Below are positions 13,887 through 64,000 of a stretch of 64,000 nucleotides of DNA, in pieces (the stretch's first letter is position 1; each line of letters starts with the position of its first letter). The position numbers and the translations under genes are program-made. Source of the stretch: Chloroflexota bacterium (lineage in GTDB: Bacteria > Chloroflexota > UBA11872). Below the pieces are notes generated by a model. It was not told the origin of the DNA and did not search any database. It saw only the letters and a list, made by a program, of their open reading frames with translations. Location: NCBI GenBank assembly GCA_028873795.1, contig JAPPNP010000026.1, forward strand, positions 196,304 through 260,303, read 5' to 3'.

Positions 13887-15359
13887 CTATGGGTGGGTGT
13901 CGGCGGCGACGCCGCGGCACAGGTTGTTCACCTCGGCGCACGAGACCGCGGTGGGGAAGATCTTGCCCGGGTTGAACAGGTTGCGCGGATTGAAGACGTG
14001 CCGCAGGCACTGCATGCGCTGCAGGTCGGCGTCGCTGTAGACGAGCCCCATGTTGCGGTGCTTCTCCATGCCGATGCCGTGCTCGCCGCTCAGCATGCCG
14101 CCCGCGTCGGCGCACACCTTCAGCACGCTGGTTCCGCACTCGATCACGCGGTCCAGGGCGCCGTTCTCCCGGTCGTCGAACAGCAGCAGGGGGTGCAGGT
14201 TGCCGTCGCCGGCGTGAAACACGTTGGCGATGGTGATGTTGAAGAAATCGCTCACGCCCGCGATCCGCGCCAGCACGTCGGTGATGGTCGTCCGCGGGAT
14301 CACGCCGTCCTGCACGTAGTAGTTGGGCGAAATGCGCCCCATCGCCCCGAACGCGCTCTTGCGCCCCAGCCAGAGCAGCGCGCGCTCGCGTGCGTCGGCG
14401 GCGACGCGGACTTCCGCCGCGCCGTGCTCGGCGAACACGCGCCGGATCGCCGCTTCCTGCGGCTCCAACTCGGCGGCCACGCCTTCCAGCTCGATCAGCA
14501 GCACGGCGGCCTTGTCGGTGGGCAGGTTGGCCGCCGGCACATACTGCGCGATGGCCTCCAGCGAAATCTGGTCCATCATTTCCATCGCCGCCGGAACGAT
14601 GCCCGCGGCGATGATTCCCGAGACCGCCGCGCTGGACTGGGCGACCTCGTCGAACGACGCCAGCATGGTGCGCACCTGGGCCGGCGTGCGAACCAGGCGA
14701 ACGACGGCCTTGGTGGCGATGCCCAGCGTGCCCTCGCTGCCGCAGAACAGCCCCGCCAGGTCGTAGCCGGGATGATCCAGCGCCGCGCCGCCGGCGGTGA
14801 CGATCCGGCCGTCCAGCGTCACGAACTCGACCCCGAGCACGTGGTTGGTGGTCACGCCGTGGAGCAGCGTGTGCGGGCCGCCGGCGTTGGTGGCGATGTT
14901 GCCGCCGATGGTGCAGGCCGCCTGGCTCGACGGGTCCGGGGCGTAGTGAAACCCGTAGCTGGAGGTGTGTGCGCTGAGGTCGGCGTTCACCACGCCGGCT
15001 TCCACCACGGCGCGCATGTTGCGGTAGTCCACCTCGAGAATGCGGTTCATGCGCGAGGTGCTCACCACGATGCCGCCGCAGGCCGCGATGGCCCCGCCGC
15101 TCAGCCCGGTTCCCGCGCCGCGGCCGATGATCGGCACGCCAAGCTCGTGGGCGATGCGCACCACCGCCTGAACGCCGGCCGTGTCTCGCGGGAACACCAC
15201 GGCGTCGGGCAGCGCGTGCTCCACCGAGCCGTCGTAGGCGTAGATCGCCACCTCGTCGGGCTCGGTCATGACCCAGTCGTCGCCGATGGCGCGACGCAGC
15301 GCCCCGCCAAGCGCGATCCGGCCCACGCTGAAGGTCGAGGCGGCGGTGGCGCTGGCCAT
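13887..15359 (-). CDS. glcD: FAD-linked oxidase, glycolate/D-lactate dehydrogenase subunit GlcD-like
   Basis: A 490-aa flavoprotein oxidising a 2-hydroxy acid such as glycolate or D-lactate. The PCMH-type FAD domain shows VVFPRDTAGVQAVVRIAHE, then GRGAGTGLSGGAIA, DPSSQAACTIGGNIATNAGG and HGVTTNHVLGVE. The C-terminal cap has VFHAGDGNLHPLLLFD and SGEHGIGMEK, where the His residues help position substrate. Length matches GlcD. No adjacent glcE or glcF is seen, so the electron acceptor is unknown. Confidence 0.92.
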   Translation of the reverse strand: MASATAASTFSVGRIALGGALRRAIGDDWVMTEPDEVAIYAYDGSVEHALPDAVVFPRDTAGVQAVVRIAHELGVPIIGRGAGTGLSGGAIAACGGIVVSTSRMNRILEVDYRNMRAVVEAGVVNADLSAHTSSYGFHYAPDPSSQAACTIGGNIATNAGGPHTLLHGVTTNHVLGVEFVTLDGRIVTAGGAALDHPGYDLAGLFCGSEGTLGIATKAVVRLVRTPAQVRTMLASFDEVAQSSAAVSGIIAAGIVPAAMEMMDQISLEAIAQYVPAANLPTDKAAVLLIELEGVAAELEPQEAAIRRVFAEHGAAEVRVAADARERALLWLGRKSAFGAMGRISPNYYVQDGVIPRTTITDVLARIAGVSDFFNITIANVFHAGDGNLHPLLLFDDRENGALDRVIECGTSVLKVCADAGGMLSGEHGIGMEKHRNMGLVYSDADLQRMQCLRHVFNPRNLFNPGKIFPTAVSCAEVNNLCRGVAADTHP

Positions 15360-15486
15360 GGTGTCCCTACGCTACGACCACCGGGCCGCACTCGCAACGC
15401 CGGAGCGGACAGGCGTTGACGGACACGCTGGGTGAAGCCGATATCCTGGCGCGGACTCCGTGCCCCCTGGTTACCCCCTGCTCGCC

Positions 15487-16914
<1,428 letters not shown>

Positions 16915-55185: not shown

Positions 55186-55262
55186 GGGCGCGTAGCTCAG
55201 CTGGTTAGAGCGCCACGTTGACATCGTGGAGGTCAGAGGTTCGAGTCCCCTCGCGCCCACCA
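55186..55262 (+). tRNA. tRNA-Val (GAC anticodon)
   Basis: Acceptor GGGCGCG/CGCGCCC, D-stem GCTC/GAGC, anticodon stem CCACG/CGTGG with loop TTGACAT (anticodon GAC), T-arm loop TTCGAGT, encoded CCA. It is intact and directly followed by the putative end sequence of island B. Confidence 0.95.
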
Positions 55263-55704: not shown

Positions 55705-56217
55705 GTGACCTGGGGGTGTGCCCTGGAAGGATCAGGGGGTTCGAAGCACAGACGTGATGATGTCAGCCAACGGCTCGAAGCAGGGCGGCCCCGGCTGGTG
55801 GTGGACCTGCCGACAACATCCAGTACCCCTCGACCCGCTGAAACCGCGTCACCACCGAGATCTGGGGCCAAGTACGCTGGTACGGCAAGGGCTGGACGGG
55901 GGCCGGCGCATGGCGCACGATTCCGACGCGCCTGGGTCACGGTTCGCGAGGACATCCCACAACGCACCGACATCGCCACGCCTTTCAACTACCGCAAGCG
56001 CCGCCATGGACTGGTCGGGCAGCAGGAGGGGCGCTGCGGCGGGTGTCGGCATGAGTTCCCATTCCGCAACTTCACCGTGGACCACGTGATTCCACCGTCT
56101 CGCGGCGGGACCGACCACCTGGACAACCTGCAACTGCTGTGCGGCGCCTGCAACAACGTCAAAGGCGACCGGACGCAGGAATACCTGTTGGCGCGGCTTA
56201 GTGAGCGGGCGGCGTGA
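55705..56217 (+). CDS. HNH endonuclease (possibly the remaining C-terminal domain of a larger protein)
   Basis: The C-terminal 85 residues form a clear HNH domain: QEGRCGGCRHEFPFRNFTVDH, IPPSRGGTDHLDNLQLLCGACNNVKGD with two C-x-x-C pairs, the catalytic His (VDH) and Asn. I recall similar HNH domains fused behind DNA methyltransferases. The first 85 residues are low-complexity and may be degraded sequence read in the wrong frame, so the true start is uncertain. First recognisable gene of island B. Confidence 0.65.
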   Translation: MTWGCALEGSGGSKHRRDDVSQRLEAGRPRLVVDLPTTSSTPRPAETASPPRSGAKYAGTARAGRGPAHGARFRRAWVTVREDIPQRTDIATPFNYRKRRHGLVGQQEGRCGGCRHEFPFRNFTVDHVIPPSRGGTDHLDNLQLLCGACNNVKGDRTQEYLLARLSERAA

Positions 56218-56250: not shown

Positions 56251-57054
56251 ATGGGCCAAGTGATTGACTATCCCGACGCGCCGCAGGGCGAGGTGCTTCG
56301 GTATGAGTTTGCCTTTCATGGCAACGACCACGGTCAGGTACACATTAGTGAACAGGTTGGCTCGGCAGCCTTAGATTCTGAAGGGCTAATACATAGTGAT
56401 AGAGCTATGTTTTGTCTCACGTATTTGGCGAGAATGATCCACAATCTTGGAAGGCACAACGCTGCGCCGGGGCTCATTGGTCATGTGAGAGAGAAGTCAA
56501 GTTTAGCTCAAAGAACCTTCTTTGGATTTGATGATTCGCGCAAAGTTGATGATGTATTTGCTGGGCTTGACCCAGTGTACGAAGCCGATATTGCAATGTA
56601 TAAACAATCGTCAATTTATGAGTTAAGTGAGAGAATAAGAAAGCCACGCAAGACTTGCAGTGCAACACTGACACGTCGAATGGATGGTGCGCTGGTATAC
56701 CAGCCTAAAGTTTCATTGTTTGGTGATGTAGCGGCTATGTCGATTTCGTCAACACTTGTACTATTCAACCGAACATTTCGTCTTGCCACCCCAACTTGGC
56801 GCACCATGTTCATGGTAGGTCTAGGAACTATGCTTTCTTGCTATGAGAGATACAACCATAGTAAAGCTGAGTTTCTTTCAGTTGCACCAAGCGCAGCATG
56901 GGATGCCATTAATCCAGCGTTGGAGTCTTCTTCAGACGAGCATCATAGCCTGGTTCAAGGCCCGTGCTCAAGACGGTCGCGGGTACCAGACAGACATCAA
57001 TGGAGCGCTCAGGGAACATGTCCACACGGCGGCCCATTCCGCAAGATAGCCTGA
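56251..57054 (+). CDS. Hypothetical protein of island B
   Basis: A 267-aa protein of unknown family, clearly A+T-richer than the chromosome. ATG 56251 (MGQVIDYPDAPQGEVLRYEF) follows GGAGGACTGAG. The middle is helical (RAMFCLTYLARMIHNLGRHN). The last 50 residues turn Ser/Arg/Pro-rich and G+C-rich, which may mean a frameshift near 56900 or fusion to new sequence. Its stop overlaps the methylase start (TGATG), suggesting coupled expression with the restriction locus. Confidence 0.55.
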   Translation: MGQVIDYPDAPQGEVLRYEFAFHGNDHGQVHISEQVGSAALDSEGLIHSDRAMFCLTYLARMIHNLGRHNAAPGLIGHVREKSSLAQRTFFGFDDSRKVDDVFAGLDPVYEADIAMYKQSSIYELSERIRKPRKTCSATLTRRMDGALVYQPKVSLFGDVAAMSISSTLVLFNRTFRLATPTWRTMFMVGLGTMLSCYERYNHSKAEFLSVAPSAAWDAINPALESSSDEHHSLVQGPCSRRSRVPDRHQWSAQGTCPHGGPFRKIA

Positions 57055-60000
57055 TGGGGCAGTGGGAGATGGCAGAACCCAAGAGCGCACTGGTAGTCAA
57101 TGCCATTAGCCAGACGACGCGAGTGTATATGACTGAAGACAGGAACATTTCGGTAGCCGACGTGCAGACCTTGGCGACGCAAGATGGCGTGGTCGCCTTC
57201 TTCGCTGCCCTTGGCTATCGCACAGATAGCCGCCAAGCTCAGAGCGTCTCTGCGATGGGGATCACTGCTGCATCCTTGTCGCGGCAGATCAAGCATATTG
57301 AACGCATCGCCGTCCAGGACGACGGCGCAGAGCCCTTGGACTCGTATTTGGTAGAGCTCACGTCCGTGACCATCGCAGCGACGCAGGGATTGGCTAGTGC
57401 GCTGAGGAACCGCGCCGGAAACTATTTGCTTGTGCTGACTGACGACTACGAACGCTTGGATTTCGTGCTATTGCAGCGTTCTCTGCCCAAGACGCCGACG
57501 TCACCTATGGCAGCGCGTCATGTGTCAGTACGGCCTCGCATCCTCACGGTGAACCGCCGCAATCCGTCCCCGGTCCAGCTTCGGGTGCTTCGCCGCTTCA
57601 CGTACACCGAGGTGGACTCCGACGCCCAATATGACAAGCTGCTCTCCGCTTATGCCGTGGCCGAATGGTCGGAGCCACTCTTCAACAATCGCGCCCTGTT
57701 CTCCGACTACTACCTGAACGAGCGCCTGCCCGAGCTCGTCGAGTGGAGGGAGCGGCCGGAGGAGGCGTATCACCGATTGCGGGAGCTTCTCCCGCAGTTG
57801 CGGCAACAGACCAGCAATATGGGAGATGGCGCATCTGCTCGCCCCCCCGTGAAGTCAGCTTTCGAAACGTTGGGCTTCAAAGTGGTCGAGGCCGGTGGCG
57901 GAGACGAACCCGACTACCGGCTGTACGCCCCCGATAACCCAGAGAAGCCGGTCGCCGTGTGCCTAGCCTACTCCTGGAACCGCTACCTAGACGGCAGGGA
58001 CGAGACCCGCGATGTGCAGACGCCCGACGAGAACCCCGGGGCACGTGTCGTCACCGTCCTAGAGTCTGGCGAAGCGCCGTGGGCCATCGTGACCAACGGC
58101 AAGCTGTGGCGTCTCTACTCCGCTAGGACCCACTCCCGGTCCACGAACTACTATGAGATCGACTTGCAGGAGACCCTGGCCACGGCCGACCCCAACGAGG
58201 CGTTCCGGTACTTTTGGCTCTTCTTCCGCCATAGGGCCTTCGTCATCAGGGAAGTCCAAAGAGACGGTCAGACCAGGGAGTTGAGCTTCCTCGACAGGGT
58301 GCTGGACGAAAGCGAAAGCTACGCTAAGGCCCTTGGGGAGCGCCTGAAGGATCGAGTGTTCGAGCGAGTGTTCCCCCATTTCGCCGCCGGCTTCATCGCG
58401 CACCTGAAGGACCAGATGGGACTTGTAGGCCCCCGCCAGGCCTCACTGCTGCCGATTTCAGAGCAGCTAGCCCTGAAGCGGGAGCCGGACGAGGACTTCC
58501 GCCGCCAGGTATTCAACGGCACTCTGACCCTGCTGTATCGGCTGCTCTTTCTGCTGTATGCGGAGTCGCGGGACCTGTTGCCAGTGAAGGAGGTGCGCGG
58601 CTACTGGGAGCGGAGTCTCACCAAGCTGAAGGAGGACATCGCAGAGAGGGCGGGGCCTATAGGTGATGCTGCTCCTGACCAGCTGAGCAAAGCGTACCGC
58701 GCGTCGGCGGACGACACAGAACTGTACGACCGCCTTTTGGACCTGTTCTCGGTCATCGACCTGGGCAGCCGCGACCTAAACGTGCCCTTTTACAACGGCG
58801 GGCTGTTCATCACGAAGCCTGACTCAGCCGACCGCACTCAGGAGGCCGAAACCGCTCGGTTCCTAGCGTCCCACAAGATACCCGACCGCCATTTGGCGCT
58901 GGGATTGGATCTGCTGGCCCGGGACCTCGACGACAAGCGCCAGGACCTGGTGTTCATCGACTACAAGTCCCTGGGCGTCCGGCAGCTGGGATCCATCTAC
59001 GAGGGGCTTCTGGAGTTCAAAGTACGCATCGCCCAGGAGAAGATGGCGGTGATCAAAGGCAAGAAGACCGAGGAGGTCATCCCATATCAAGAAGCAGTCG
59101 ATTCCAAGAAGAAGGTGCTGACCATAGGACGCGGACGCAACGCGCAGGAACGGACCTACCAACCCGGCGGCGTCTTCCTGGAGAACGACCGCCGGGAGCG
59201 CAAGGCCTCCGGGTCCTATTACACGCCCGACCATATCGTGAAGTACGTCGTCGAGAACACGGTGGGGCCGGTGCTGGTCGAGAAGTTCAACAAGCTGCGC
59301 CCCAAGTTCCGGGATGCCCAGCGGGACTACAGGACGGCTCTGGACAGGGCCGAGGCTTTCCGAAGGCAGGGGATGCAGCCCGACAACCCGGCCATGGTCG
59401 CTAACAGCTACGCGGGCCTAGTGGACGACCTGTTCGACCTGAAGGTGCTGGACCCGGCGATGGGATCGGGCCACTTCCTCGTAGAGGCGGTGGACTTCAT
59501 CTGCGACCGTATCCTGGGGGAGCGAGAAGGTTTCCTGCGGGCCTTCCCTTGGAATCCGGTGACCAAGTTCCTGCAAGACACCCGCGAGGCCATCATCGCC
59601 GAGATGGAGCGACAGGGAGTCGCCGTCGACACAGGACGTCTCACCGACATCAACCTCCTGAAGCGCCACGTGCTCAAGCGTTGTGTCTACGGCGTGGACC
59701 TAAATCCGATGGCAGTGGAACTGTCCAAGGTGTCCCTGTGGCTGGACTGCTTTACCATTGGCGCTCCGCTCTCCTTCCTGGACCACCATCTCAAGTGCGG
59801 CAACTCCCTCATCGGGACGACGGTGCAGGAGATAGAGTCTGAGCTTGCCAAGCAGACCAAGGGACATGCCGGCACCCTGTTCGGCGGTCCCTTCCAGGGC
59901 CTGCTCACGGCCACCGCATCCATCGAGCAACTGCGTCGCATCCCGGACGCCACGGTAGAGGAGGCCGAGCGCAGCCACAGTCTTTATGGAGAATTCGAGA

Positions 60001-61424
60001 ATGCCCAGGCTCCCTACAAAGCCGCGCTAGACATCTGGGTGAGCCACCATTTCGGCAACGTGAAGGCCAAAGAATACCTGACACTGGCAGGTGGCGATCT
60101 GGTAGAGCAGATTCGCTCCGGAGGAAAGGGGGAATCTGAGTACTACCGGGAGGCAATTGCACGGGGGAGCAGGCTCGGCGCCGAGAAGCGCTTCTTCCAT
60201 TGGGACCTGGAGTTCCCAGAGGCGTTCGTCGACCTCGCACGCGGCACCTGGAAGCGCAAGAACGACCAAGGATTCGACGCCGTGGTGGGCAATCCGCCTT
60301 GGGGCGCTGAATTGACAGATGCGAACCTCGCCTTTGTTCGTCGTTCTTACAAGAGTGTGTCTAAGGGCGTTGTAGATAATTTCGCGGTCTTTCTCGAGGC
60401 CGCTCATCGACAAACCAGCATTAGTGGCTACTTGAGCCTACTTCTCCCAGATATCTTCCTGCTCAAGAACCACCCCGGAATCCGCAATTACATGCTAAGG
60501 AATACTCGCATCGATGAAATCGTCCACTGGGGGATGCCATTTCCAGAAGTTAATCTTGATGTCTGTTCAATCGTCTCCCACAGCGGAAGCCCGCCTCAGA
60601 ACCACCTAGTACGATGCGTGCCGGAAGTCAAAGGCACCCACGTGCCTTTGCCAACACCAAACGAAATCCCTCAAAGTCGGTTTCTTGAGCAAGCCGACTA
60701 CAGAATTAATCTTGTCTTGACTGAGAACCTCTATTCAGTTCTAAGCGCAGTAAAAGGTCTTGGACCACAATTCGCTGATCTATTTACCGTCAGAGAAGGG
60801 ATCCACTCCGGCAACATTCGCTCAAAGCTATTCCCTCATGAGCGGCCATCGGAGAATGGCCAGCCGTTGATCTTCGGTCGCAATGAGATACGCCCATTCA
60901 AGATCACATGGTCTGGACGATGGGTGAACTACGACAAGAATATTATACACAAAGACCAAGGTGAATATGCCAATCTTGGTAAACGCTCCTTTCACGAGGC
61001 CGTCAAGATACTTGTCCGCCGCACTGGAGATACTGTAGTGGCAGCATTGGATGAGCAAGGTCACTTCGCCTCAAATAATCTCTTCCTTTGCATCCCTGAC
61101 ACCCTTGGTCAACATCACATCGGGTACTGTCTGGCCCTTCTTAACAGCGAGTTCGCTACTTGGTACTTTCGATCAACCAATCCTAGGACAGGAAGGTTGT
61201 TTTCTGAATTGAAGATTAATCACCTGAATGACATTCCTATGGTGTTCATAGGGGATATTCGGCATAATCGCTGGGTAAAGGATGTAAACAAGTCTGTCAA
61301 CGAATTGCTAATTGTCGATGGCGAGGACATTTTTCGGTACATGGACGAATTTAACAGATGTCTGTGGGACCGTCTGGCTGAAGATGTCCCTGAGATAGCA
61401 GCCTATCAAGGAAATGGAGAGTGA
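57054..61424 (+). CDS. Eco57I-type N6-adenine DNA methylase with N-terminal nuclease-like domain
   Basis: About 1,456 aa. An N-terminal region of about 400 residues ends in a restriction-fold-like block (EPDYRLYAPDNPEKPVAVCL, then APWAIVTNGKLWRLY). Where active relatives have an E-x-K (...VEAK...), it reads CLAYSW, so the nuclease centre appears lost. The methylase core has VLDPAMGSGHFLVEAVDF (motif I), YGVDLNPMAVELSKVSLWL and AVVGNPPWG (motif IV, NPPW at 60291). A TaqI-like target-recognition region follows, visibly A+T-richer. ATG 57054 is preferred (TGATG overlap). Likely modification and recognition subunit of the island's restriction system. Confidence 0.85.
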   Translation: MGQWEMAEPKSALVVNAISQTTRVYMTEDRNISVADVQTLATQDGVVAFFAALGYRTDSRQAQSVSAMGITAASLSRQIKHIERIAVQDDGAEPLDSYLVELTSVTIAATQGLASALRNRAGNYLLVLTDDYERLDFVLLQRSLPKTPTSPMAARHVSVRPRILTVNRRNPSPVQLRVLRRFTYTEVDSDAQYDKLLSAYAVAEWSEPLFNNRALFSDYYLNERLPELVEWRERPEEAYHRLRELLPQLRQQTSNMGDGASARPPVKSAFETLGFKVVEAGGGDEPDYRLYAPDNPEKPVAVCLAYSWNRYLDGRDETRDVQTPDENPGARVVTVLESGEAPWAIVTNGKLWRLYSARTHSRSTNYYEIDLQETLATADPNEAFRYFWLFFRHRAFVIREVQRDGQTRELSFLDRVLDESESYAKALGERLKDRVFERVFPHFAAGFIAHLKDQMGLVGPRQASLLPISEQLALKREPDEDFRRQVFNGTLTLLYRLLFLLYAESRDLLPVKEVRGYWERSLTKLKEDIAERAGPIGDAAPDQLSKAYRASADDTELYDRLLDLFSVIDLGSRDLNVPFYNGGLFITKPDSADRTQEAETARFLASHKIPDRHLALGLDLLARDLDDKRQDLVFIDYKSLGVRQLGSIYEGLLEFKVRIAQEKMAVIKGKKTEEVIPYQEAVDSKKKVLTIGRGRNAQERTYQPGGVFLENDRRERKASGSYYTPDHIVKYVVENTVGPVLVEKFNKLRPKFRDAQRDYRTALDRAEAFRRQGMQPDNPAMVANSYAGLVDDLFDLKVLDPAMGSGHFLVEAVDFICDRILGEREGFLRAFPWNPVTKFLQDTREAIIAEMERQGVAVDTGRLTDINLLKRHVLKRCVYGVDLNPMAVELSKVSLWLDCFTIGAPLSFLDHHLKCGNSLIGTTVQEIESELAKQTKGHAGTLFGGPFQGLLTATASIEQLRRIPDATVEEAERSHSLYGEFENAQAPYKAALDIWVSHHFGNVKAKEYLTLAGGDLVEQIRSGGKGESEYYREAIARGSRLGAEKRFFHWDLEFPEAFVDLARGTWKRKNDQGFDAVVGNPPWGAELTDANLAFVRRSYKSVSKGVVDNFAVFLEAAHRQTSISGYLSLLLPDIFLLKNHPGIRNYMLRNTRIDEIVHWGMPFPEVNLDVCSIVSHSGSPPQNHLVRCVPEVKGTHVPLPTPNEIPQSRFLEQADYRINLVLTENLYSVLSAVKGLGPQFADLFTVREGIHSGNIRSKLFPHERPSENGQPLIFGRNEIRPFKITWSGRWVNYDKNIIHKDQGEYANLGKRSFHEAVKILVRRTGDTVVAALDEQGHFASNNLFLCIPDTLGQHHIGYCLALLNSEFATWYFRSTNPRTGRLFSELKINHLNDIPMVFIGDIRHNRWVKDVNKSVNELLIVDGEDIFRYMDEFNRCLWDRLAEDVPEIAAYQGNGE

Positions 61425-61427
61425 ATT

Positions 61428-62450
61428 ATGGACATTCTCCCCACGTGGTCATTAAAGGGTGGTGCGGTACGCACTTCATTTCAGGATGGCCTGACGCAGT
61501 TCTTGGAATCGGACAATAGCTCTAGTCGGGTAAACATCTACCTTTATGAGGTGACACGAGCCGGTTGGGACTCGATTTCGCAGTCCGTCAACGTTTGGCT
61601 AGCTAAACGCAAGAGCAGGAGAGTCAACGTGTACTGTGGGCTTTCTAACTGGCTTACCGAACCCTCCGCGCTCACTGAAATGATGGAAGCCTTTCCAAGA
61701 CGAGTATGGGTAGTGAAGCGTGGGCATGGCATCTTTCATCCAAAGTCCTATATTTTTCGCGCCCGTAGGAGAGCGTATTGTTTTGTAGCATCGAACAACT
61801 TGACGCAGGCAGGCATGTCAGCAAACTTCGAAATGGGTGCTCGACTGACCGTACCAGACACAGACAACGCCAACTGGAAGGCGTTAGATGAGTGGGAATC
61901 GACTGTAAAGTCCATCTCGACCCCGTTGACTAAGGGTTTGCTCACGATATACGAAGAAGAATACGAGCAGATGAGACGCCTTCCTCGCGAGCATCCTGGG
62001 ATTGTGGGGAAATCGAGAGTGCGGTTTCATGCTACGGCAACTTCCGCAGGGTTACCCTCAGCAAGGGGCGCGGTTATGGAAGTCATGCCTAAAGAGACCG
62101 GGACACGCGGCAGCCAACTCCAAATCCCCAAACAGGTGGCAGTGTCGCTTTTCGAACTGACTCCGGGAGGGCAGCGAAACGTCACTCTGAGAGATGTTGA
62201 GACTGGAGAGGTGGCCAACCTAACTCTGACAGACTATGGCAACAACACAAGGCGGCTATCTATTGGCCGACTAACTCAAGTTGAAAAGCCCCGAATAATC
62301 TGGTTCAAGGAAAGAGGTGCAATGTTTGACTTCAACATCGTCTCCAAGGCAACAGATCCATCGGAATACGACAGATTGCTCTCGCTTTGTCCCTTTCAGA
62401 CCTCTCCCAACAGCAAGAGATGGGGTATGTATGAAGATACGACATTCTAA
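61428..62450 (+). CDS. PLD-superfamily restriction nuclease (NgoFVII-like)
   Basis: A 340-aa protein starting three bases after the methylase stop. FHPKSYIFR followed by CFVASNNLTQAGMSANFEMG is a single H-x-K ... S-N PLD motif, as in metal-independent nucleases of the BfiI/NgoFVII type that work as dimers. The C-terminal half is beta-rich (QVAVSLFELTPGGQRNVTLR) and could be a DNA-binding B3-like domain. It is A+T-rich like the recognition half of the methylase. It probably provides cleavage for the system. Confidence 0.78.
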   Translation: MDILPTWSLKGGAVRTSFQDGLTQFLESDNSSSRVNIYLYEVTRAGWDSISQSVNVWLAKRKSRRVNVYCGLSNWLTEPSALTEMMEAFPRRVWVVKRGHGIFHPKSYIFRARRRAYCFVASNNLTQAGMSANFEMGARLTVPDTDNANWKALDEWESTVKSISTPLTKGLLTIYEEEYEQMRRLPREHPGIVGKSRVRFHATATSAGLPSARGAVMEVMPKETGTRGSQLQIPKQVAVSLFELTPGGQRNVTLRDVETGEVANLTLTDYGNNTRRLSIGRLTQVEKPRIIWFKERGAMFDFNIVSKATDPSEYDRLLSLCPFQTSPNSKRWGMYEDTTF

Positions 62451-62477
62451 GCGAGATAACATACCCGTGGTAAAGAT

Positions 62478-62687
62478 ATGTTCAAGTTACATCAACAGAT
62501 TGAACTGACCGAGGTTCTCACCGGAGGGATAGGTGACGATCTGAGGCTTGGCGACACGGGCGACGTGGTGGAGTTCCTCAACCTAGACGGGAGCAAATCC
62601 GTCATAGGCACTGTCCTGCCGCATCAGGTGCGGCCGGTCACCGGCAAGGACATCACCCACACCCGTCACGTAGAGATTACTGCCTGA
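62478..62687 (+). CDS. Small protein of unknown function
   Basis: A 69-aa protein: MFKLHQQIELTEVLTGGIGD, LGDTGDVVEFLNLDGS, then GTVLPHQVRPVTG. It is a small beta-barrel-like sequence, rich in Gly and Val, resembling short DUF4926-type proteins in pattern only. Base composition returns to G+C-rich here. It lies between two PLD genes, five bases before the helicase gene, so it is likely part of the same operon. Confidence 0.5.
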   Translation: MFKLHQQIELTEVLTGGIGDDLRLGDTGDVVEFLNLDGSKSVIGTVLPHQVRPVTGKDITHTRHVEITA

Positions 62688-62692
62688 GCACC

Positions 62693-64000
62693 ATGTACAT
62701 CCCCTACGTCATCGACAACCACAGCAACCGCATGGCCGATGTGCTATGCGAGCTTCTGGCGAAGCACGGCGGCAAGTCGCTGGACATTGCCACCGCCTAC
62801 TTCAACGTGCGAGGGTTCACCCTGCTTCAGCAGGGCCTGCAAGGGTTGGGTAGCATCCGCCTTCTCCTAGGCGACGAGCCGCAGGACGGCGAATCGGTGG
62901 GCCTGCGGCCCAAGGCAGCCTCGCGCCTAGCCGAGGAGTTGAACGCCGCCCCTTTCGACGAGGCGACCCTCCGAGCGGTTGAGGATCTGATTACCTTCCT
63001 GCGCCGGGACGTGGTGAGTGTTCGGGCCTATCAACAGGGGTTCCTCCACGCCAAGAGCTATATCTTCTACGGCGACTTTCCTACGGGCGGCGCAGACCGA
63101 TTCCAGCCCGTGGCGGCCATCGTCGGCTCCAGCAACTTCACCGGCGCCGGACTCACCACCAACAGGGAGCTCAACCTCTCCCACAAGACGGCCCTAACCG
63201 AAGAGGAGATGTTGAGAATAGGCCCAGCTCCTGTAGATGGGCGAGAGGAAATGGAGTTTCGACGTGAGTTGATGAGCGGCGTGGGCGCTCAGGCCATTAC
63301 CGAGCTGGACCGCTGGTTCCGGGAACGGTGGGAGGAGTCGCGGGACTTCAAGGAGGAGCTCATCGAGCTCTTGGACGCGTCCAAGTTCGGCCAAGTGGAG
63401 TACACCCCTTACCAAGTGTACATGAAGGCCCTCTTCGAGTACTTCAAGGACGACCTAGGGACGACCGAGGCTACGCCCGGGAAGTCGGCCGTGGAACTGT
63501 CTGAGTTCCAGGAGGACGCGGTCAAGAAGGCCCGCCGAATCCTTGCCCGCTACGACGGGGTTCTGATTGGAGACTCGGTGGGACTGGGAAAGACCTGGAT
63601 CGGAAAGAAGCTCCTGGAAGACTACGCCTACCACCTGCGGCAGAAAGCACTGGTCATCTGCCCGGCGTCCCTCCGCCAGATGTGGACCGACGAACTTCGG
63701 GACGCCACCATAGCCGGAGCCATCGTGTCCCAAGAGGAGCTGGGACAAGCAGGGTTTGACACGGGCCCGGTCGGTGATGCTGACGTCATCCTTATCGACG
63801 AGTCTCACAACTTCCGTAATCGCACCACCCAACGCTACGAGAACCTTGAGCGCATCATTAGCGCCAACGGAGGCAGGGGGCGGGACGGCAGCCGTAAGAA
63901 GCTCATCCTGCTTACAGCGACGCCCATCAACAACACCATCTTCGACCTGTACAACCAGTTGACGCTGATAACCGGGGGTGACCGCAGCTACTTCTCCGGC
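62693..64000 (+). CDS. PLD-domain SNF2-type helicase, 3' end outside window
   Basis: The frame is open from ATG 62693 to the window end (436 codons). The N-terminal PLD-like domain (about residues 1-180) has FLHAKSYIFYG then AAIVGSSNFTGAGLTTNREL (H-x-K ... S-S-N). The SF2/SNF2 motor starts near residue 265: Q motif LSEFQEDAVKKA, Walker A IGDSVGLGKTWIGKKL, ICPASLRQMW, DESHNFRNRTT (DExH-like) and LLTATPINN (motif III). PLD-SNF2 fusions accompany phage-restriction loci. The helicase may translocate DNA for the methylase/nuclease upstream. Confidence 0.85.
   Translation, partial: MYIPYVIDNHSNRMADVLCELLAKHGGKSLDIATAYFNVRGFTLLQQGLQGLGSIRLLLGDEPQDGESVGLRPKAASRLAEELNAAPFDEATLRAVEDLITFLRRDVVSVRAYQQGFLHAKSYIFYGDFPTGGADRFQPVAAIVGSSNFTGAGLTTNRELNLSHKTALTEEEMLRIGPAPVDGREEMEFRRELMSGVGAQAITELDRWFRERWEESRDFKEELIELLDASKFGQVEYTPYQVYMKALFEYFKDDLGTTEATPGKSAVELSEFQEDAVKKARRILARYDGVLIGDSVGLGKTWIGKKLLEDYAYHLRQKALVICPASLRQMWTDELRDATIAGAIVSQEELGQAGFDTGPVGDADVILIDESHNFRNRTTQRYENLERIISANGGRGRDGSRKKLILLTATPINNTIFDLYNQLTLITGGDRSYFSG

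Follow-up and report, generated by a model that had tools for sequence, protein, structure and literature searches.

A methylase–helicase pair of a Chloroflexota bacterium and the probable slot for exchangeable defence genes between its two genes

The right-hand end of a 64,000-nucleotide stretch of contig JAPPNP010000026.1 from a Chloroflexota bacterium (assembly GCA_028873795.1; hereafter the window) encodes four co-directional open reading frames (ORFs), which raises the question of whether these form one restriction system or which of them belong together. On the forward strand, they encode a large methylase (M; 57054-61424, 1456 aa), a PLD protein (61428-62450, 340 aa), a 69-aa product (62478-62687), and a PLD-SNF2 helicase (H; 62693-66025, 1110 aa); of H, positions 62693-64000 lie inside the window and the last 2 kb are on the contig to the right of it (L004:7693-11025 in our locus numbering). 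The gaps of 3, 27, and 5 bp agree with the first-pass annotation of the window, which had described four co-directional genes 3-28 bases apart and read them as one composite set. We propose, with a probability of roughly 0.55, that M and H are the core of a two-component, ATP-dependent restriction-modification (RM) system, that the gap between them (61425-62692 in the window) is a slot for exchangeable genes, and that in the window the PLD gene and the recognition domain of M are a joint cassette.

Methylase and helicase as a conserved unit

The survey drew on 400 genomes of the phylum, plasmids, and 85,000 species genomes searched with a 13-helicase alignment; gene calls were the longest ORFs, M and H were located by profile, and loci were retained if an M of at least 900 aa was encoded no more than 8 kb upstream of H. 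This yielded 66 distinct loci, from Chloroflexota to cyanobacteria and archaea, which are the best-scoring helicase matches and thus no random sample, and many of which are metagenome-assembled. Distances between M cores correlate with those between helicases (rho 0.62; 0 of 500 permutations as high), as does GC content at third codon positions (GC3; rho 0.95), which indicates that M and H have largely stayed together, whereas the PLD gene is present in just 3 of ~75 loci and the 69-aa ORF is confined to the window. Judged from these comparisons, M with H is the conserved unit and the four-gene set is not; in the neighbourhood analysis of homologues, which had been set beforehand, the proposed composite set came apart, with only M and H kept together. 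The 69-aa ORF, with no Pfam match and no homologue at any examined locus, may not be a real gene. Five Ktedonobacteria-type loci have a gene for a TIR-NACHT-HEAT (NLR-like) protein of ~1,000-1,180 aa (L087:2573-6109; homologues in L082-L085) directly upstream of M.

M is a predicted Eco57I-class adenine methylase with a TaqI_C specificity domain (Pfam matches Eco57I, 1e-24, and TaqI_C, 7e-22; both above cut-off), and a possible upstream GTG start at 56964 would extend it to 1486 aa. The methyltransferase NPP[YFW] motif is present in all 66 M relatives and motif I in 65. The TaqI_C match lies in the target-recognition domain (60303-61421), the GC3 of which is ~0.5, compared with 0.8 in the core. 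In an AlphaFold2 (AF2) model of residues 1-739 (predicted local distance difference test, pLDDT, 81) compared with Protein Data Bank (PDB) folds, residues 237-420 (57762-58313) align with HsdR and type IIG nuclease domains at Z 7-8.5 (HsdR 3h1t, Z 8.5, root-mean-square deviation 3.4 over 113 residues; BpuSI, Z 8.3; EcoR124I HsdR, Z 7.0) and residues 427-722 match the HsdM N-terminal region (3lkd, Z 7.8), values that are close to the level of common arrangements, with matches that agree mutually and with the enzyme class. Apart from residues 228-423 and the HsdM-like helices, no part of M gave informative PDB fold matches. In the PD-(D/E)XK (REase-like) fold of the window protein, ExK is replaced by LxY, and this position reads L/F-x-Y in 17 of 17 aligned relatives. 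The degenerate nuclease noticed in the methylase at first reading is thereby confirmed as a feature of the family; the domain is predicted to be inactive, in which case cutting would fall to H or to the PLD protein. In Brasilonema (L101:1023-7892), one ORF of >2,200 aa precedes H, as if M were fused to cargo that is separate elsewhere.

H carries an N-terminal PLD domain followed by a SNF2 motor (PLDc_2, SNF2, and Helicase_C, all above Pfam cut-off), and the Pfam domain search gave no Z1 match. Its HKD residues (H119, K121, N148, E159), Walker A lysine (K300), and DExH residues (D369, E370) do not vary in any of the 66 loci. The window does encode two PLD proteins, as originally stated. The best PADLOC match of H is C3a139 'HKD+Snf2' (4e-68), which is better than that to DrmD; judging by its name, this model may stem from a survey of CBASS neighbours. 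Two relatives of H (L111:9449-13420 and L219:12414-16385; 1323 aa in total) have an extra N-terminal stretch of ~200 aa that resembles helix-turn-helix regulators.

The pair could conceivably be a variant or remnant of a DISARM or DUF499-centred (Hma or BREX-related) system minus its other subunits, given that M and H score against the DrmMI, DrmD, and HmaA models and that Type-2 BREX-related helicases likewise have an N-terminal HKD nuclease (PMC12839542). The PADLOC scores (M against DrmMI, 2e-84; H against DrmD, 6e-42) reflect likeness at the superfamily level only, and H reaches 173 bits against NCBIfam DrmD, for which the cut-off is 610; the resemblance to pieces of DISARM that had been pointed out thus stands for the superfamilies and goes no closer. 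Domain and PADLOC searches of the right flank, up to the contig end, identified no drmA, drmB, or drmC, in line with the lack of a visible DUF1998 (drmB) gene at first reading, and the only DUF1998-linked (MZB) gene of the genome sits on another contig (C70). No match to DUF499 (HmaC; PF04465) was obtained across the entire genome, which is 96.6% complete. DISARM class 1, with drmA, drmB, and drmC not beside M and H and a DrmD score far under the cut-off, and an Hma or DUF499-centred system, with its defining ATPase absent, were both rejected as assignments. Further, the two-gene M–H unit recurs intact across many phyla, so that it does not represent a single decayed copy. We therefore regard a remnant origin as largely refuted and very improbable.

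The gap between M and H

M and H are separated by at most 60 bp in 16 of the 66 loci and by more than 400 bp in 49. What lies between them varies among loci that sit close together on the H tree, where presence alone has changed at least 10 times. Approximately 45 of the encoded proteins were annotated individually and 46 in bulk, and the cargo includes HEC-01A/B (L075, with homologues in L107 and L212), a CBASS cyclase with a SLATT effector on a Microcystis plasmid (L096), a GmrSD/HEC-05-like gene on a Deinococcus plasmid (L095), a Piwi Argonaute with an Mrr/PDC-S02 nuclease (L116), AAA_13/PDC-S06 (L118), OLD-TOPRIM proteins (L113 and L144), an OLD/AriA-like gene (L166), an ImmA-like protein with PIN/DUF4411 (L110, with homologues in L149 and L164), DUF1828/PDC-M24B (L129), an AbiEi-like gene (L106), and HNH, Mrr, HD, DUF559, and PIN genes. 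Several of these genes match HEC-01, HEC-05, PDC-S02, PDC-S06, and PDC-M24B models. The GC3 of the cargo is below that of the M core in 42 of 48 loci. These contents suggest that the M–H gap is probably a slot for exchangeable accessory defence genes. Sigma-70-family proteins are encoded between M and H in two loci (L099:6429-7988 and L208:6722-8008), which would be unusual for a defence locus; the L099 protein is also matched by the M profile, apparently via its N-terminal region, and the N-terminus of the L208 protein is similar by eye.

Pairs of loci with near-identical frames place the borders of the exchanged stretch within ~50 bp of the M stop and H start. DNA homology ends 21 bp before the M end and restarts 3 bp before H in L142/L144 (flanks 89-91% identical); it ends 14 bp past M and restarts 1 bp before H in L098/L152, ends 3 bp past M and restarts 9 bp into H in L094/L158, and ends 48 bp before the M end and restarts 6-30 bp into H in L027/L032. 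In L181/L182, homology restarts exactly at the H start. The simplest reading is that such borders reflect recombination in the conserved flanks, seen after the contents had diverged.

Alternatively, the cargo could be noise of assembly or gene density, with unrelated genes of a defence island falling between M and H. Many of the loci are metagenome-assembled, as stated above, and in a PADLOC control OLD-type matches were found for 7 of 46 slot genes and 2 of 56 genes downstream of H (Fisher p 0.07), an excess that is a trend only; its lack of significance counts for this alternative. However, the share of genes that run in the direction of M is higher in the slot (72 of 86) than directly after H (73 of 117; p 0.0009), and the borders lie near the M end and H start in near-identical frames that include isolate cyanobacteria (L094/L158 and L098/L152). 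On balance, noise is a poor explanation of the cargo and we give it little credence.

The recognition domain and the PLD gene

The PLD protein of the window matches only PLDc_2 in Pfam, below the family cut-off (E 5e-4), and gave no direct RE_NgoFVII match; however, its plasmid and Chloroflexota relatives do match RE_NgoFVII (E 8e-7 to 2e-3), and a six-member family profile compared with PDB matches SauUSI (9e-15), BfiI (2c1l, 2e-7), and R.NgoAVII (4rct, 1.5e-3). The first-pass description of a NgoFVII-like nuclease hence applies to the family, although not through the window protein itself. The active-site residues are H104, K106, S122, N124, and E135, of which H104, K106, and N124 are invariant in the six members. 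The PLD domains of the L153 and L112 proteins and of two plasmid proteins are related to that of the window (z 15-23), whereas the C-terminal halves of the L153 and L112 proteins are unrelated to its variable C-terminal domain (z 1.8 and -0.8), as expected of a swapped recognition domain. The protein is thus predicted to be a restriction endonuclease of BfiI/R.NgoAVII type. A PLD relative occurs in 3 of the 400 genomes of the phylum, that of the window counted; no further PLD cargo was identified among 20 additional loci or in a viral scan with a PLD alignment.

The closest full relative of the window locus is L153, from a Chloroflexota metagenome-assembled genome. Identity between the two is 71% for the M core and 75% for H, but 21% for the recognition domain and 26% for the PLD protein, against a shuffled background of ~23%. 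The DNA break opens directly after the methylase NPPW motif (60288-60302), 1126 bp before the M end, and homology is back 5 bp into H. A single break spanning both means that the recognition domain, PLD gene, and 69-aa ORF (60303-62692) form one continuous replaced block relative to L153. For contrast, the HEC-01 cargo of L075/L107 is 75/69% identical, on par with the frame, with a recognition domain at 40%, and in L142/L144 the recognition domain is 93% identical and yet the cargo differs. A low GC content was considered as a mark of a unique transfer of recognition domain and PLD gene, a candidate weakened by low GC in the recognition domains and cargo of nearly all loci.

The joint cassette calls for caution. 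The linked exchange is seen in one close pair only (L004/L153), and recognition domains are often replaced in any case (in L080/L081, H is 98% identical and the recognition domain 41%), so that the linkage may be coincidence. The PLD C-terminal half from Pannonibacter is related to that of the window (z 21) while the M recognition domains are unrelated (z 2), which shows that the pairing is not strictly one-to-one by homology. The structure model of the PLD protein is too poor (pLDDT 43) to assign a B3-like C-terminal fold and was discarded. Among the loci, recognition-domain similarity does not predict PLD presence.

The PLD protein may instead be an ordinary embedded defence gene, independent of the specificity of M, in which case M and H would restrict and the PLD protein would be a backup nuclease. 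Other slots do carry clearly independent modules (CBASS, Argonaute, OLD/Gabija-like, and HEC-01), generic cargo changes while the recognition domain persists (as in L142/L144), and in L188 the PLD C-terminal half and the M recognition domain are unmatched. However, methylase–PLD pairs occur without a helicase on plasmids of Pannonibacter and Salipiger, and the L004/L153 exchange block spans the recognition domain and the PLD gene unbroken. We consider an independent PLD nuclease a possible but less favoured explanation. Two-gene methylase–PLD units on alphaproteobacterial plasmids (L188:6887-8002 and L190:5701-6816) each adjoin a recombinase gene.

The sequences themselves show the domain make-up, the conserved catalytic residues, the conservation of M with H, the exchangeable contents of the slot, and the borders of exchange; under the proposed two-component system with a joint cassette, methylation, recruitment, cleavage, an anti-phage role, and a shared site are all steps that we infer from sequence. 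M would read its DNA site via the TaqI_C-type domain and methylate adenine of the host DNA; at unmodified foreign sites H would be recruited or activated, its SNF2 motor would translocate, and its N-terminal PLD nuclease would cut. Accessory defence genes would be swapped in the slot, with M and H on either side probably serving as arms for homologous recombination. The slot of the window would hold a BfiI/R.NgoAVII-like PLD endonuclease, probably gained with the M recognition domain as a specificity cassette and restrained by the same methylation, and thus most likely a second nuclease tied to the mark of M; like BfiI, it may cleave without a partner, or it may require H as a motor (as R.CglI requires its helicase partner). 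A composite restriction system, in which a methylase recognition domain and a second, sequence-specific PLD endonuclease are swapped jointly between a fixed methylase core and a nuclease-motor, we put forward only tentatively. If this were the case, one recombination event would install a new target for both marking and cutting, in the same slot that otherwise takes whole unrelated immune systems. The window would then be a direct test case for how a restriction system can acquire a new target and spare its host, namely through joint transfer of the recognition domain and its matching nuclease.

To the left of the operon are a tRNA-Val gene (55186-55262) and an HNH endonuclease gene (55705-56217), where the defence region may have integrated. 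A further 7.4 kb of contig to the right of H encodes a winged-helix regulator, two low-GC ORFs of 519 and 545 aa that adjoin the operon (L004:12622-14181 and 14545-16182; window-equivalent 67622-69181 and 69545-71182) and have no Pfam, PADLOC, or NCBIfam match, and two tandem pairs of mutually alike genes of ~96 and ~123 aa (L004:16489-18017; window-equivalent 71489-73017), possibly small toxin-antitoxin-like modules. A promoter and terminator scan gave no signal above chance. Elsewhere in the same genome there is another, divergent pair of PLD-SNF2 helicase and methylase (L042; contig C32:22000-35484), in the order H then M, and such H-first pairs are frequent in related genomes.

Comparison with known systems

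The notion that RM loci embed defence genes is recent and is being used to find new systems. Candidates embedded in Hma loci are the HEC and PDC genes of 'guilt by embedding' (Payne 2024, as cited in PMC12988326 and PMC12255303); TgvAB (PMC11411939) and DarTG2 (PMC12255303) are embedded in type I RM loci, and backup effectors occur within BREX and BREX-related loci (PMC12839542). In the open-access literature, we found neither the M–H chassis described as a slot carrier, nor an account of comparably sharp borders or of a cassette that joins a recognition domain to a nuclease; subscription papers were mostly outside the search, and prior description is possible. Embedding as such is already published; the apparent novelty lies in the M–H chassis and in the linked cassette. 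With only two genes, the chassis is simple, and it occurs widely among bacteria and archaea. The edges of its slot coincide almost exactly with the stop codon of one gene and the start codon of the other, so that the contents can be read automatically, and many slot genes without an assigned function are candidate immune genes.

Like DISARM class 1, the locus has broad superfamily matches to a methylase (DrmMI), a SNF2 helicase (DrmD), and a PLD protein (DrmC); unlike it, the locus lacks drmA and drmB, H has its own PLD domain, and DrmD and DrmC NCBIfam scores are far below cut-off. Hma and DUF499-centred BREX-related Types 1-2 share an N6-methylase, a Swi2/Snf2 helicase, and embedded extra effectors with the M–H loci, and Type-2 is a known case of an N6-methylase paired with a PLD-Swi2/Snf2 helicase, which carries an N-terminal HKD nuclease, as H does, and is accompanied by a DUF499 ATPase (PMC12839542); the defining DUF499 ATPase, and the DUF3780 of Type-2, are absent here. 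CglI and NgoAVII likewise combine a methylase, a PLD endonuclease (R), and a superfamily 2 (SF2) ATPase (N/H), and their PLD R-protein recognises the site and needs its helicase partner and ATP for cleavage, whereas BfiI cuts without ATP (PMC4267653); the PLD family profile of the window matches R.NgoAVII and BfiI. However, CglI and NgoAVII have C5-cytosine methylases and a Z1-domain helicase with no reported PLD nuclease, whereas here the methylase belongs to the Eco57I (adenine) class, the helicase brings a PLD nuclease of its own, and an R-like protein is missing from most relatives. As in type IIG and type ISP enzymes (BpuSI, DrdV), M unites a nuclease fold, HsdM-like helices, a methylase, and a recognition domain in one chain, but its nuclease motif is predicted to be dead and the helicase and the putatively active nuclease are in a separate protein. 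Finally, as in the RM loci with embedded defence genes, independent modules lie between the subunit genes of an RM-like system; unlike in these, the chassis is a two-gene M–H pair without an HsdS or ATPase subunit, and the borders are resolved to ~50 bp.

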